39,971 bases of DNA from Fidelibacterota bacterium (GCA_004124475.1 SCKK01000031.1:1-39971); one strand, 5' to 3'; positions 34,394-39,971 are shown, counted from the stretch's first letter. The notes: generated from the letters alone by a model not told the origin. A program made the numbers and translations.

Positions 34394-34467
34394 CGGAGCG
34401 TGGCGTAGCCCGGTAGCGCACCTGAATGGGGTTCAGGGGGTCGCGAGTTCAAATCTCGCCGCTCCGA
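34394..34467 (+). tRNA. tRNA-Pro(GGG)
   Basis: Acceptor CGGAGCG/CGCTCCG, D-arm GCGTAGCCCGGTAGCGC, anticodon arm CCTGA-ATGGGGT-TCAGG with anticodon GGG, T-arm GCGAG-TTCAAAT-CTCGC, discriminator A. CCA is not encoded. All stems pair well. Confidence 0.95.
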
Positions 34468-34485
34468 CTAATAGTTAATCAACTA

Positions 34486-34536
34486 TAAATAAAGGGGTTA
34501 GGATTGAAATTCAATTCAGTCCTGCCCCCTATTTAT
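34486..34536 (+). terminator. Hairpin terminator after tRNA-Pro
   Basis: AAATAAAGGGG..AGGA pairs with TCCT.CCCC.TATTTAT in a long stem, with an inner TTGAA/TTCAA hairpin. A small TAGTT/AACTA hairpin precedes it. Confidence 0.6.
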
Positions 34537-35336
34537 ATCCTTTCATATCCCAAATTTGACCGTATTAAACCGCACAGAGCGGGATACAGACGGGATACGG
34601 AATAAAACGACGTAAAATAAGCTACCCTTTTTTATTTCATCAAGTCCCTATGTTCGATGTAGGAAAGAAAACGGGTCCACGTGTCAATTAGGGGGTATAT
34701 TTACAGAATTAGAGGCGTACTCAGGATAAAGGGGTGAGGTTCTTAACATGATAACTGAGTTTAATTTTCAGATATTACTATAATCGGAGGGTAAAATTAG
34801 GGTACTTAATGAATTAGGAATTTTATCATATTTTTCTAACAGTAATAGTATTATGGATGAGTACCCCGGACAGGACCCGAACCTGCGACCTACGGATTAG
34901 AAATCCATTGTGTTCTCGTCGATAATAGGGGTCGGTACAGCATTGATTTACGGCATTATTTTAATACTGTACTTTCACTGGTATGGCTAAAATAAAGATT
35001 AAGAAATCTTACAAGCGCCGATTGTATCATTTTGTCTATGTCCAAATGTTATTACATTTTGGCACCGGATCTGAATATGGCATTGTATGGGTTCAGAGTC
35101 TCTCGTACAGAATTGTCTTATAAGTTAAGGTGATAATTTTGGGTAAATTCGTGGATAAAGAAAGGAGCAATCATGAACCTATACAAAACGATTGTTTCAG
35201 CGGAAGTATGATTTGGTGTATCATTATGTATATGATTTACATAATTGAAGAATTATATATGAATAGTTACTTTATTTGGAAACATTAATAGATCTATCTT
35301 GGCAAGAACGAATTAAATAAAGAAAGGAATGGCTAT
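34537..35336. other. Gene-poor stretch upstream of the large orphan gene
   Basis: Apart from the tRNA-Arg fragment (34861-34908), no gene can be supported. Two short starts, near 34983 (MAKIKIKKSYKRRLYHFVYV) and near 35173 (MNLYKTIVSAEV), have ribosome-binding-like sequences (AAAGGAGC before the second). Their DNA resembles each other around TGTATCATT-TGT-TATG, suggesting a decayed duplication. AAAGGA at about 35323 serves the large gene. Confidence 0.4.
34861..34908 (-). tRNA. 3' half of tRNA-Arg(TCT), attachment-site-like
   Basis: The minus strand has the anticodon arm ATGGA-TTTCTAA-TCCGT (anticodon TCT), variable AGGTC, T-arm GCAGG-TTCGGGT-CCTGT and acceptor half CCGGGGT plus A. The 5' half is not a tRNA: it has no D-arm GG, and only ACCCC (near 34929) could pair with the acceptor. 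A 3' half-tRNA is what tyrosine integrases leave at the far end of an inserted element. It may also be a broken tRNA gene. Confidence 0.65.
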
Positions 35337-38300
35337 ATGCAAGGAATGATAATTACTGAGAATCAATTAGATAATTGGGTGCGCGGAAATGCTGAGAAAG
35401 CCCAGGGAGTGATTGTTGAACTTATTTATAGATTAGTTGCAACATCATCTCCAAAACCAAAAGACCGACGTTTTTCGCTTGCTGATAGTGTTGGTCAACC
35501 TGGACCTGATGGATTTTTGCATACTGATGTTCATTATAATCCATATATCCCTGAAGGAAAATCATATTGGGAGATTGGAACCGGGATTAAACCCCAAGAA
35601 AAAGCAACAAAAGACTATACGGAATTGACTCAAGGAACACCATCTGATGAACGTCAAGAGTCAACGTTTATCTTTGTGACTCCAATTTCAGGAAGAAGAG
35701 GCTGGCCATATACATGGAAAGAAGAAGCCCAAATAAAATGGTTGGAAAATCACAGAAAGCTAAACGATTGGAGTGATGTTCGTATTATTGATTGCACGAA
35801 GTTAATTGCCTGGATAGGCGAATTTCCAACCGTTGAGAAATGGCTTTTGAAAATAATGGGGCTTCCATCTCAAGATTTCGAAACTCCTGAACAACGTTGG
35901 TTGGACTTGAAGTCAATTGGAGAGCCACCTCCACTAATTCCAGAAATATTTACTACATGTCGTGATGAGGCATGTAAAAAGCTCAAAGAAGTACTTGATG
36001 GAGATACAAATCGGCTAAAGATAGATACTAAGTATCCTGATCAAATGGCTGATTTTGTTTCAGCTTATGTTGAATCGTTAGTTTCTGATACAAAGATGGA
36101 AATATTTGGACGAAGTTTAATTTTATCAAATTTAGACGCATGGAAGGCAATTGTAACATTTAAAGGACGTCATATATTAATAGCTGACTTTCTTTTCAAT
36201 GATGCTGATTCGGCAGGTATTAGGCTACTTGAAAGAGCCAAAAAAGCTGGACATGCCGTTGTTTATAGTGGGATGCCAGGAGGTATACCTGAATTGAACA
36301 GAGTTACTATTCCAAATCCAAATAGATCGAATATTAGAGATCTTTTGACAAAGGCTGGTTATTCCGAGGAGCGATCGCGTAATCTTGCACAAAAAAGTGA
36401 TGGCAACCTTAGTGTTTTACTAAGATGCATCCAAAACCTTTCATTGACACCTGAATGGGCTTCTGGGACTGAATCTGCGGAAATTATAATAGCAGAATTA
36501 CTTGGAGGGTGGGATGAAAGCTATCCTGCAGATATAGAAAGTGTAGAGAAATTATCAAAAAAAGCATACGGGGAGTGGATAGGTAATATAAGGGCAATTG
36601 CCTCTCGTCCTGGCACTCCCCTGAATCACTATGGCGGTAAATGGAGAATGGCTGCGCGATTTGAGGGGTGGTATTCACTTGGTACCCGAGTTTTTGATGA
36701 ACATTTAGATTTAATAAAAGAGATCTGTATCAATGTATTAAGTGAACGTGATCCACAATTTGATTTGCCTCCTGATGAGAGATATATGGCCAGTATTCAT
36801 AATAAAGTGCTAAAACATTCCTCTCTGCTTCGAAAAGGCCTTGTAGAAGCTTTGGCTCTAATGGGTAGCAGACCAGATGCGATCACATCATGTACGATTG
36901 GAAAGTCTGAAGCGATAGCAAACTTGATTGTTCGGGAGATATTGAGTACAAAAGACTGGATTCAATGGGCGAGTCTTAATGATCTTTTACCATTGTTAGC
37001 TGAGGCTTCCCCCGAAGAATTTCTGAATGCAGTTGAATCAGCAATGATTGCTAATCCTTGTCCGTTCATTAATATTTTTAAGCAAGAAACTGCTGGTATC
37101 ACCGGACGAAATTATCTAACTGGTCTACTATGGGCATTAGAAACATTAGCTTGGGATCCAAGCTATCTCACTCGTGTTATTGTTCTACTCGGAGAGATTG
37201 GTACAATTGATCCGGGTGGAGGATGGGGTAACAGAGCAGAAAATTCTCTTAGCACAATACTATTACCCTGGATGCCACAAACTTGTGCTCCCATACCAAA
37301 TAGAGTGACTGCTATTAAAACATTATTGACAGAAGTTCCCGATATTGGGTGGAAAACACTTTTATCACTACTACCACAATCCCAGTCTGTATCGTCAGGC
37401 TCGCGAAAACCTGTGTGGAGAAAATTGATTCCTGAAAATCATAAAAGTGGAGTAACACGTGGTGAATATTGGGAGCAAGTTTCGATTTATTCAGAGATTG
37501 CCATCAATAAAGCAAAGGAAGATTTCTCAAAAATTGTAGAGTTATTAGAAAAATTAGCGCATTTACCACCACCAAGACGAACTCAACTTCTTGATTATCT
37601 TCGTTCAAACGAAGTTGCCGATCTTCCACAGGATGATAAGCTGGTAATTTGGATGAAACTAATGGATATTATTACAGAACATCGAAAGTATGCTGATGCA
37701 GATTGGGCTTTACCACAATCAGAGGTCGATATCATTGCCAAGTTAGCAGATGCTTTAACACCAGATACACCGAATTACAAGCATCGAAGATTATTTAGTG
37801 AGCGTGATTTTGATCTATATTCCGAAAAAGGCAATTATCAGGAACAGCGCGAAGAATTATATAGCCGACGGAAAATTGCGATTAGTGATGTTTTCTTAAT
37901 TGGTGGTCTTGAAGCTGTGTTAGAATTCATAAAAAATATAGAATCACAATGGCATGCAGGCACCGCTTTTGGAGCAACTGCAACGTCTGAAACTGAAAGA
38001 ATGATTCTTCCAGAGTTAATTAATACAATAGAGGATACAGTAAAAAGATTTATTGAAGGGTTTATTTGGGGGAGATTTCAAAAAAATGAATGGCAATGGT
38101 TTGATAGCCTTGAAACCTCTGATTGGGAACCAAAACAAAAAGGTATGATTTTATCCAATCTTCCATTCACTCCTGCTACTTGGGAGCGTGTATCGAAAAT
38201 GTTACCAGAGGATGAATCACCATACTGGTCGATGACACGTGTGAATCCATATGATACAGAAATGGGACTGGATGTAGCAATAAATAGTTTGCTTAACCAT

Positions 38301-39149
38301 GATCGACCATACTCTGCAATTAAATGTATTACAAAGTTAATTCATGGAAAATTACCATTAAATACACAACAAGCTATACGAGCATTACAAGCGGCACTAA
38401 ATACACAAGAAAATCCCCTTTATGCTGATGGGCATGATGTTATTGAGATCATTAAAGTCTTGCAGGATAATCCGGATCCTATATCCAACAATCTCACTCA
38501 GATTGAATGGTCATATCTTCGACTTCTTGATGGACTTTCAGGAGCAAGACCAATATTATTGGAAAAGCAGATCTCGGAAGATCCAAATCTGTTTTGTGAA
38601 ATCATTCAAGCTGTATACGTGTCGAAAAAGGAAAAAATGTCTAAAAAGGACTTAACTAAACAACAAAAGAATATCGCTGAGAATGCCTATCATTTATTAA
38701 GAAATTGGCAGATACTACCAGGTAGCAAAGAGGATGGGACTATTGACGGTCAGAAATTGAATCACTGGTTTAAAGAAGTAAAAAAAACTTGCATAAAAAC
38801 TGGGCATTGGGAAATTGCACAAATTCACATTGGTAAAGTTCTTATTCATGCTCCACTTGATTCAGATGGTTTTTGGATCAATCATGCAGTGGCGAAGGTG
38901 TTGAATTTTAAAGAGGCTGAGGACTTACGAGATGGCTTTACTACTGAATTATTTAATTCAAGGGGGGTCTATTTTGGTTCTGGTGCTAAAGAAGAAAGTA
39001 AGTTAGCAAACAAATACTTGAAACAAGCTAATGATGCCGATTCTCAAGGATACGTTCGTTTAGCTACTGCATTAAGAAAACTATCAAGGACATATGAGAG
39101 AGATGCCGAAAGACATTCGTCAAGAGATCCTTTCGATGAGTTATATTAA
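35337..39149 (+). CDS. Large orphan protein with PD-(D/E)XK-like N-terminus, putative defence gene
   Basis: 1270 residues; the family is not recognised with certainty. The N-terminal part (about 1-175) has PGPDG (Asp 58), SYWEIGTG (Glu 79), QEKATKDY (Lys 89), TFIFVTP, WSDVRIIDCTKLIAWI and FPTVEKWL, the order seen in restriction-like nucleases fused to STAND-type proteins. Next comes a domain (about 205-370) with the layout of a STAND ATPase: RSLILSNLDAWKAIV, GRHILIADFL, GHAVVYSGMPGG, then a helical LLTKAGYSEERSRNLAQKSD segment. No GxxxxGK[ST] P-loop is present. The remaining 900 residues are a helical repeat-like sensor region. The start is ATG 35337 after AAAGGA. It is a lone gene beside a tRNA fragment and IS debris. 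Role inferred: abortive-infection style sensing and DNA cleavage. Confidence 0.6.
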   Translation: MQGMIITENQLDNWVRGNAEKAQGVIVELIYRLVATSSPKPKDRRFSLADSVGQPGPDGFLHTDVHYNPYIPEGKSYWEIGTGIKPQEKATKDYTELTQGTPSDERQESTFIFVTPISGRRGWPYTWKEEAQIKWLENHRKLNDWSDVRIIDCTKLIAWIGEFPTVEKWLLKIMGLPSQDFETPEQRWLDLKSIGEPPPLIPEIFTTCRDEACKKLKEVLDGDTNRLKIDTKYPDQMADFVSAYVESLVSDTKMEIFGRSLILSNLDAWKAIVTFKGRHILIADFLFNDADSAGIRLLERAKKAGHAVVYSGMPGGIPELNRVTIPNPNRSNIRDLLTKAGYSEERSRNLAQKSDGNLSVLLRCIQNLSLTPEWASGTESAEIIIAELLGGWDESYPADIESVEKLSKKAYGEWIGNIRAIASRPGTPLNHYGGKWRMAARFEGWYSLGTRVFDEHLDLIKEICINVLSERDPQFDLPPDERYMASIHNKVLKHSSLLRKGLVEALALMGSRPDAITSCTIGKSEAIANLIVREILSTKDWIQWASLNDLLPLLAEASPEEFLNAVESAMIANPCPFINIFKQETAGITGRNYLTGLLWALETLAWDPSYLTRVIVLLGEIGTIDPGGGWGNRAENSLSTILLPWMPQTCAPIPNRVTAIKTLLTEVPDIGWKTLLSLLPQSQSVSSGSRKPVWRKLIPENHKSGVTRGEYWEQVSIYSEIAINKAKEDFSKIVELLEKLAHLPPPRRTQLLDYLRSNEVADLPQDDKLVIWMKLMDIITEHRKYADADWALPQSEVDIIAKLADALTPDTPNYKHRRLFSERDFDLYSEKGNYQEQREELYSRRKIAISDVFLIGGLEAVLEFIKNIESQWHAGTAFGATATSETERMILPELINTIEDTVKRFIEGFIWGRFQKNEWQWFDSLETSDWEPKQKGMILSNLPFTPATWERVSKMLPEDESPYWSMTRVNPYDTEMGLDVAINSLLNHDRPYSAIKCITKLIHGKLPLNTQQAIRALQAALNTQENPLYADGHDVIEIIKVLQDNPDPISNNLTQIEWSYLRLLDGLSGARPILLEKQISEDPNLFCEIIQAVYVSKKEKMSKKDLTKQQKNIAENAYHLLRNWQILPGSKEDGTIDGQKLNHWFKEVKKTCIKTGHWEIAQIHIGKVLIHAPLDSDGFWINHAVAKVLNFKEAEDLRDGFTTELFNSRGVYFGSGAKEESKLANKYLKQANDADSQGYVRLATALRKLSRTYERDAERHSSRDPFDELY

Positions 39150-39390
39150 TGATATCGAACTAAATTATGCACTGTCCAAACTATGGGGTCCATTTCTGGA
39201 TTTCATAAAAACTCTTGAATAAAATAAACCACATCTACATAAAATGTAAGTATAAACACAATACAAAATTGTAAATGATACGATTAGTGAGTAATTTTTG
39301 TTGAATTAGAATAAGGTTGTAAATTTCGATGAAAAGCTACGAAAAATTTATTAGAGAGAAACTGGTTGGTTCCATATCACTCGTAGATTG
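39150..39390. other. AT-rich gap
   Basis: AT-rich DNA between the orphan gene and the broken transferase gene. I see no terminator with a T-run, no RNA gene and no repeat. Confidence 0.3.
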
Positions 39391-39855
39391 ATGACAGAGA
39401 TTAGGCAAAAAGCTGAATTCACGAAGGAAACAAATCTTCAAGGAGAATTTGTTCGCCAGCAGAGCATATTTCGTCAAGGGGTGACGGCAGATGGTAGCTC
39501 TGATTTCCAAGCACAGTCTGACAGGTATCATTTGTATATTTCATTAGCTTGTCCTTGGGCTCACCGAGCAAATATATTTCGTAAATTAAAAAAACTCGAG
39601 AATGTCATTTCCCTATCCATTGTTGATCCTATCAGGGATAATCAAGGCTGGAGGTTTACTGATAACCCTGGATGTATACCGGATTTCCCCAACGGTTTTA
39701 AATTTCTAGAAGAAGCTTATGAAATGACTGACCCATCTTTTAATGGAAGAGTAACAGTCCCGGTGCTTTGGGATAAAGAAAAAAAAATGATCGTCAATAA
39801 TGAATCTTCTGACATTATTCGCATGCTGGATTCAAGTAGTAAGTGCAACATTTGA
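39391..39855 (+). pseudogene. Glutathionyl-hydroquinone reductase-like gene, cut by an IS30 element
   Basis: About 154 residues equal the N-terminal half of the omega-class GST-like reductases (YqjG/PcpF type, normally over 300 residues). GEFVRQQSIFRQGVTADGSS, then YHLYISLACPWAHRANIFRK contains the catalytic Cys. PVLWDKEKKMIVNNESSDII is the glutathione-binding ESS motif. The frame then ends SSSKCNI at 39855 exactly where an IS30-family transposase end begins on the other strand. The C-terminal helical domain is missing, so the product is probably inactive. The ATG at 39391 is preferred over the TTG at 39388. Confidence 0.8.
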
Positions 39856-39971
39856 AAGTTCCCCGAAAAATACCTGATTGGGGGTTTTGAACCCAAGACA
39901 TTTTCTCGGACGGTTATTTAGCTTTTTAATAACTCTGATTATTTCATCATCTGTGATGGTTCTAAAGTCTC
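39832..39971 (-). CDS. IS30-family transposase, C-terminal part (runs off the window)
   Basis: The minus strand reads DFRTITDDEIIRVIKKLNNR, PRKCLGFKTPNQVFFGE, LSNVALTT, then stops at 39832. NNRPRKxLGFKTPxxVF is the ending of IS30-family DDE transposases (integrase core). The upstream part lies beyond the right edge. Its last codons overlap the 3' end of the reductase fragment, which places the insertion junction near 39836-39840. Confidence 0.8.
   Translation of the reverse strand, partial: DFRTITDDEIIRVIKKLNNRPRKCLGFKTPNQVFFGELSNVALTT

Follow-up and report, generated by a model that had tools for sequence, protein, structure and literature searches.

The locus and its surroundings

The window (the whole stretch of DNA analysed here, 39,971 nucleotides from a Fidelibacterota bacterium, GCA_004124475.1 SCKK01000031.1:1-39971) carries a large gene whose layout and surroundings are given in Table 1. 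Judged by its relatives, this ORF is an intact and conserved gene, because these are full-length proteins of near-identical length with 40-57% identity, and its reading as a chance ORF is ruled out by the same homologues. Searches of Pfam, PADLOC and NCBIfam with the 1270-residue protein gave no above-threshold match, to a known non-defence family or otherwise, and sub-threshold matches such as that to rubrerythrin at residues 1217-1260 were judged to be chance. Sequence searches of the PDB with both family profiles also gave no match.

An earlier reading of the sequence alone had placed the gene in a genomic island, which is borne out by the partial tRNA-Arg(TCT), the IS-like repeat and the broken GST gene. 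The repeat is multicopy and is what interrupts the GST gene downstream of the large ORF. GC content gives no island signal, as the ORF and the window both stand at 38.2%. The non-coding stretch at 34476-34814, which adjoins the tRNA-Pro gene, has copies of 73-82% identity on contigs C1, C21, C24 and C72, one of them near a tRNA-Ala gene, and may be a mobile or repeat element associated with tRNA genes.

Table 1. Features of the window at and around the gene for the 1270-residue protein
Feature	Position	Strand	Remarks
tRNA-Pro(GGG), intact	34394..34468	+	upstream edge of variable region
Partial tRNA-Arg(TCT)	34856..34910	-	likely attachment-site remnant; 91% identical to intact gene on contig C9
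Shine-Dalgarno-like sequence AAAGGA	35323..35328	+	8 nt 5′ of the ATG; read from sequence
Whole gene, 1270 aa (nuclease, pseudo-STAND, winged helix, alpha-solenoid)	35337..39149	+	ATG start
Predicted PD-(D/E)XK-type nuclease, residues 1-180	35337..35876	+	model and conservation; catalysis predicted
Codon of nuclease residue D58	35508-35510	+	conservation
Codon of nuclease residue E79	35571-35573	+	conservation
Codon of nuclease residue K89	35601-35603	+	conservation
AAA+/STAND fold without P-loop, residues ~184-366	35886..36434	+	model, Foldseek, alignment
Winged-helix domain, residues ~380-451	36474..36689	+	secondary structure in model
HEAT/ARM-like alpha-solenoid, residues ~455-1262	36699..39122	+	model; proposed sensor
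Truncated GST-domain gene	39388..39855	+	3′ end interrupted
IS-like repeat end	39825..39971		contig stops here; repeat also at many of the genome's other contig ends

No defence gene was recognised in the immediate flank of the window copy, where the contig ends 0.8 kb downstream. The earlier description of the gene as encoded alone, with no partner, holds for this copy but not for the family, as other members lie inside R-M operons. One of these is the genome's own paralogue of the gene, which shares 43% identity with it across residues 373-1257, bears a second kind of nuclease head (nuclease 2) and sits between HsdM-HsdS and RhuM-HsdR within a type I R-M operon. In this operon (contig C16; L145:3132-14330) the RhuM-family gene corresponds to PADLOC PDC-S05, and HsdR is encoded by two overlapping ORFs (775 and 344 aa), a split perhaps due to a frameshift.

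Predicted nuclease domain

Residues 1-430 were modelled with AlphaFold from an alignment of 47 relatives (pLDDT 89). In the model, residues 1-180 have the element order helix-helix-strand-strand-strand-helix-strand-helix-strand, in which the PD-(D/E)XK core order (alpha-beta-beta-beta-alpha-beta) is present, strands 2 and 3 bearing the acidic residues. The residues D58, G59 and E79 are each found in 47/47 of the aligned relatives and K89 in 46/47; PD-(D/E)XK-like motifs had been noticed at the N-terminus from the sequence, and Asp58, Glu79 and Lys89, then named as the key residues, are exactly the conserved ones. The canonical (D/E)xK lysine is absent, position 81 being glycine in 45 of the 47 relatives, and K89 is placed in the helix that follows this position and is probably the migrated catalytic lysine. 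As the canonical position is a glycine (G81), the predicted nuclease activity therefore rests on the displaced K89. On the model, residues 1-180 are predicted to form a nuclease fold of the PD-(D/E)XK type which would cleave DNA, in line with the fold expected of this region. No SIR2 match was found in the window protein with Pfam, the topology of the model being of the nuclease type instead.

The pseudo-STAND domain

The nuclease is followed in the model by an alpha/beta domain of the AAA+ type and then by three helices (residues ~184-366). The best PDB match to residues 1-430 with Foldseek is Avs4 (8dgf_A; E-value 1.4e-6, probability 1.00), though the global superposition of Avs4 is loose (TM 0.31), and further matches are to RFC, spastin and other AAA+ proteins. 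A search of a viral structure library likewise returned generic AAA+ and RFC matches.

The Walker A motif GxxxxGK[ST] is found in this region in 0/47 of the aligned family members, where the position of its loop reads T-K-Y-P-D-Q or similar, and in the window protein LKIDTKYPDQMADF aligns where PD-lambda-4A has VRITGLSGVGKTR. The Walker B region is partly acidic, with D284 present in 31/47 relatives, and R209 and F240 are invariant among all 47. A STAND-like layout without Walker A, as proposed from the sequence, is thus what the model and alignment give. The P-loop is indeed absent, and this is a state common to the whole family, not a loss peculiar to one protein, and a recent loss in the window protein alone was rejected on account of this family-wide absence.

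Winged helix and alpha-solenoid

For residues 370-1270, AlphaFold was run with an alignment of 63 relatives (pLDDT 90). The winged helix at residues ~380-451 is the start of the part which is common to differently headed relatives. Behind it, residues ~455-1262 are entirely helical and HEAT/ARM-like (~800 residues, pLDDT 90), which agrees with the long helical, sensor-like region recognised earlier; this solenoid is the putative sensor. Foldseek searches with the solenoid gave only generic HEAT/ARM proteins (CAND1, importins), with no hint of a specific ligand.

Comparison with known defence systems

PD-lambda-4 was identified in a functional selection for anti-phage systems of E. coli (Vassallo et al., 2022, PMC9519451), and a P-loop NTPase is given for it in PMC10952713. 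For comparison, a set was made up of three matches to the PADLOC PD-Lambda-4_A profile and a homologue from R. gallicum. Alignment of the family with this set by hhalign gave Prob 97.7 and an E-value of 2.1e-12 over 966 collinear columns with a score of 117, while reversed and block-shuffled decoys scored no higher than 34 (E-values of at least 0.017). The signal is mostly C-terminal, residues 1-430 alone being weak (Prob 7-56). The PADLOC PD-Lambda-4_A profile itself does not match the window protein and gives weak partial matches in L003, L006 and L008 only (L numbers denote loci of relatives). On the hhalign comparison, the window protein is a distant full-length homologue of PD-lambda-4A. 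The latter (PADLOC PDLC03991) is of similar size (~1280 aa) with a collinear order of nuclease, STAND, winged helix and helical region, and its N-terminal effector is swapped too. However, all four PD-lambda-4A-like proteins have a Walker A motif (GLSGVGKT/GASGLGKS), which hhalign places opposite the P-loop-less segment of the family, and the PD-lambda-4A nuclease has a D...QxK motif instead of D...E with a displaced K. It may be added that the PD-lambda-4A-like proteins of L122 and L123 have an alpha/beta-hydrolase-like head in place of the nuclease.

With Avs4 of the AVAST systems the family shares, by models and fold search, the order of a nuclease effector, a STAND-type domain and a long helical C-terminus in one protein. 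It differs from Avs4 in having no P-loop, in a HEAT-like C-terminus with no specific match to Avs4, and in that no match was detectable by PDB sequence search. DSR2 is a SIR2-HTH-HEAT receptor which has no NTPase domain and is triggered by a phage tail tube protein (PMC11263360). Its layout, in which an HTH-type domain connects the effector with a HEAT-repeat sensor, is that of the STAND-less members of the family, but its effector is SIR2, no sequence relationship was found, and the window protein retains a pseudo-STAND domain. Inactive STAND domains as such are already known from BREX: BrxB and BrxF, together with MoxR-vWA systems, have STAND domains without Walker motifs, for which a role as sensor or switch has been proposed (PMC12839542). 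As in the family, a STAND/AAA+ fold has there lost its Walker motifs within a defence system. However, BrxB/BrxF is a small separate subunit or a fusion inside BREX, whereas in the family the domain lies within a nuclease-solenoid receptor, which in most cases is independent of BREX.

Family size, spread and effector swapping

The protein had been described as an orphan, which it is not: besides the paralogue in the same genome, species-level genomes yielded at least 577 relatives in a profile scan. A scan of genome contigs with the single window protein had found no relatives, a profile of eight relatives being needed. Nine relatives are in viral contigs, and 22 plasmids carry the family, of which 11 are conjugative. 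The literature search, which covered mostly open-access papers, found no mention of the checked protein accessions. The family is without a name in Pfam, PADLOC, NCBIfam or the literature covered.

The loci analysed come from 22 named phyla, archaea included, whose labels are for the most part intermixed on the tree (45 changes, against a shuffled mean of 52). This suggests much horizontal transfer of the family, with binning errors of MAGs and paralogy also contributing. Nearest to the window protein are rows from Bacillota, Deltaproteobacteria and Methanosarcinales, and the two copies from Neomarinimicrobiota (Fidelibacterota) fall elsewhere on the tree; the host is placed in this phylum because L009, from the same class as the host, appears identical to L057. 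The gene is sporadic, being present in one of 61 genomes related to the host and in six of 245 genomes of the phylum, a distribution which rules out its reading as a core gene.

The constant part of the family is formed by the winged helix and solenoid, in which the two main types match over 893 profile columns at 42% identity. Among 97 rows, 54 have the window protein's head of nuclease 1 and pseudo-STAND, preceded in some members, plasmid copies included, by an extra N-terminal XRE HTH, and 35 have the second PD-(D/E)XK-like head without a STAND domain. Invariant residues of the latter are D62, D63, Q82 and K84, motifs from which it is predicted to be a nuclease. Other heads are a protein kinase (L079), a nucleoside phosphorylase (PNP_UDP_1; L087) and DUF4145 (L074), while L029 has a calcineurin-like phosphoesterase (Metallophos) on the pseudo-STAND domain. 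Head changes on the tree number at least eight, a rough figure obtained with FastTree. The STAND domain is absent in about a third of the sampled members, in which the winged helix and solenoid are retained.

Defence and mobile context of relatives

Defence-gene enrichment around homologues had been put forward as a check, and the surroundings of relatives are defence-like: HsdS makes up 9/150 immediate neighbours, with several HsdR and methylase genes also present, against none in the families listed for 140 control genes. The control set is small, and the 80 loci compared with it are those of the closest relatives. Genes of type I R-M or PglX occur at 12/86 family loci and at 0/17 control loci. 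The L074 locus has a BREX-like cluster, and plasmid copies adjoin AbiE, SIR2, abortive-infection, RES-Xre and Shedu-domain genes. In E. coli, a full-length copy is present in 7/5426 genomes, and at the loci read these copies lie at the edge of prophage remnants. Homologues that were core genes with no island context would have a different look from this sporadic gene, whose relatives lie among R-M or BREX genes, on plasmids and in prophages.

The family gene of R. gallicum and R. leguminosarum has a PD-lambda-4A-like gene 53-63 bp downstream, and in R. gallicum the P-loop of this neighbour is intact. These plasmid pairs (L004:7716-15676 and L127:8548-16575), with a P-loop-less gene ahead of a PD-lambda-4A-like gene, may be pairs of a dead and an active receptor. 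Such a partner was not found at the other fetched loci, and an obligatory active-STAND partner was rejected, as among these loci it is present on Rhizobium plasmids only.

Proposed function and alternatives

STAND/NLR immune receptors are found from bacteria to plants and animals, and their gating is thought to need nucleotide binding and oligomerisation. We consider it quite probable that the window protein is a single-protein innate-immune receptor directed against phage or mobile DNA, related to PD-lambda-4A and Avs, which has no P-loop and would operate independently of ATP. In the proposed mechanism, the winged helix and alpha-solenoid would recognise an invader protein, and binding would rearrange or oligomerise the receptor via a scaffold of winged helix and pseudo-STAND domain that has no P-loop for holding ATP. 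The PD-(D/E)XK domain would thereby be released to cut DNA, stopping the infection and probably killing or arresting the cell. Such a receptor may descend from, or share a common ancestor with, nuclease-STAND receptors of the PD-lambda-4A/Avs type with a working P-loop, the nucleotide switch having presumably gone in the family, with the STAND domain absent in many members and effectors exchanged. Except for the orphan status, the sequence-only reading is upheld, with a P-loop-bearing homologue now recognised among known defence proteins, from which, with the gene contexts, we infer the defence role.

The same immune role with the nucleotide switch kept, either through a non-canonical site in the pseudo-STAND domain or through ATP that an active STAND partner provides in trans, appears unlikely. 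The invariance of R209 and F240 would fit a retained function of the domain, and the Rhizobium gene pairs with their intact P-loop in R. gallicum would fit a partner, but the partner is absent at the other fetched loci. The main argument that the switch is not required is that, in a third of the sample, the same winged helix and solenoid occur without any STAND domain. A selfish or addiction function for mobile elements, such as a toxin-like nuclease or one used in plasmid and prophage competition rather than in anti-phage defence of the host, is improbable; it would accord with frequent carriage by conjugative plasmids and prophages and with the XRE HTH at the N-terminus of plasmid copies, which is typical of self-regulated toxins, but sits poorly with members inserted into type I R-M and BREX operons on chromosomes and with homology to a system proven against lambda. 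The two readings also overlap, as the exclusion of rival elements is itself defence. Some repair proteins combine a nuclease, an AAA+-like domain and a HEAT-like scaffold, yet a housekeeping nuclease of DNA repair or processing with a large scaffold is disfavoured and very improbable given the rarity of the gene in related genomes and in the phylum, the swapping of effectors and the carriage by plasmids and prophages.

Beyond the single protein, the family may be an NLR-like receptor class with one winged-helix and solenoid sensor, at least six kinds of effector and no nucleotide switch, the STAND domain being a dead scaffold or absent and gating having passed from ATP-gated to ATP-free; we hold this wider claim to be evenly poised between right and wrong. 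A receptor layout on which effectors are still swapped, with no P-loop or no STAND domain at all, would show that the sensor arm can gate an effector by itself. The family also contributes several hundred or more candidate defence genes, which go unrecognised by PADLOC (2023), Pfam and NCBIfam. The wide spread, effector swapping and lost switch give the family an interest above the usual. Natural comparison sets exist in PD-lambda-4A with its P-loop, pseudo-STAND members and STAND-less members, of which a pseudo-STAND and a STAND-less member coexist in the genome of the window.

Split and two-gene members

At L007 and L100 a separate small HetE-N gene (PF20701; L007:5570-5890 and L100:7564-7884) lies just upstream of a headless sensor gene, and at both loci the two proteins have HSGxGxN-type motifs, hinting at an adaptor pair. 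Three further members have a gene divided at one common point within the winged helix (L079:10028-10041, L080:4230-4233 and L088:9976-9990), with overlapping stop and start codons. A programmed frameshift was considered here and rejected, as the frame offset differs between the loci, and the arrangement instead looks like gene fission with translational coupling.
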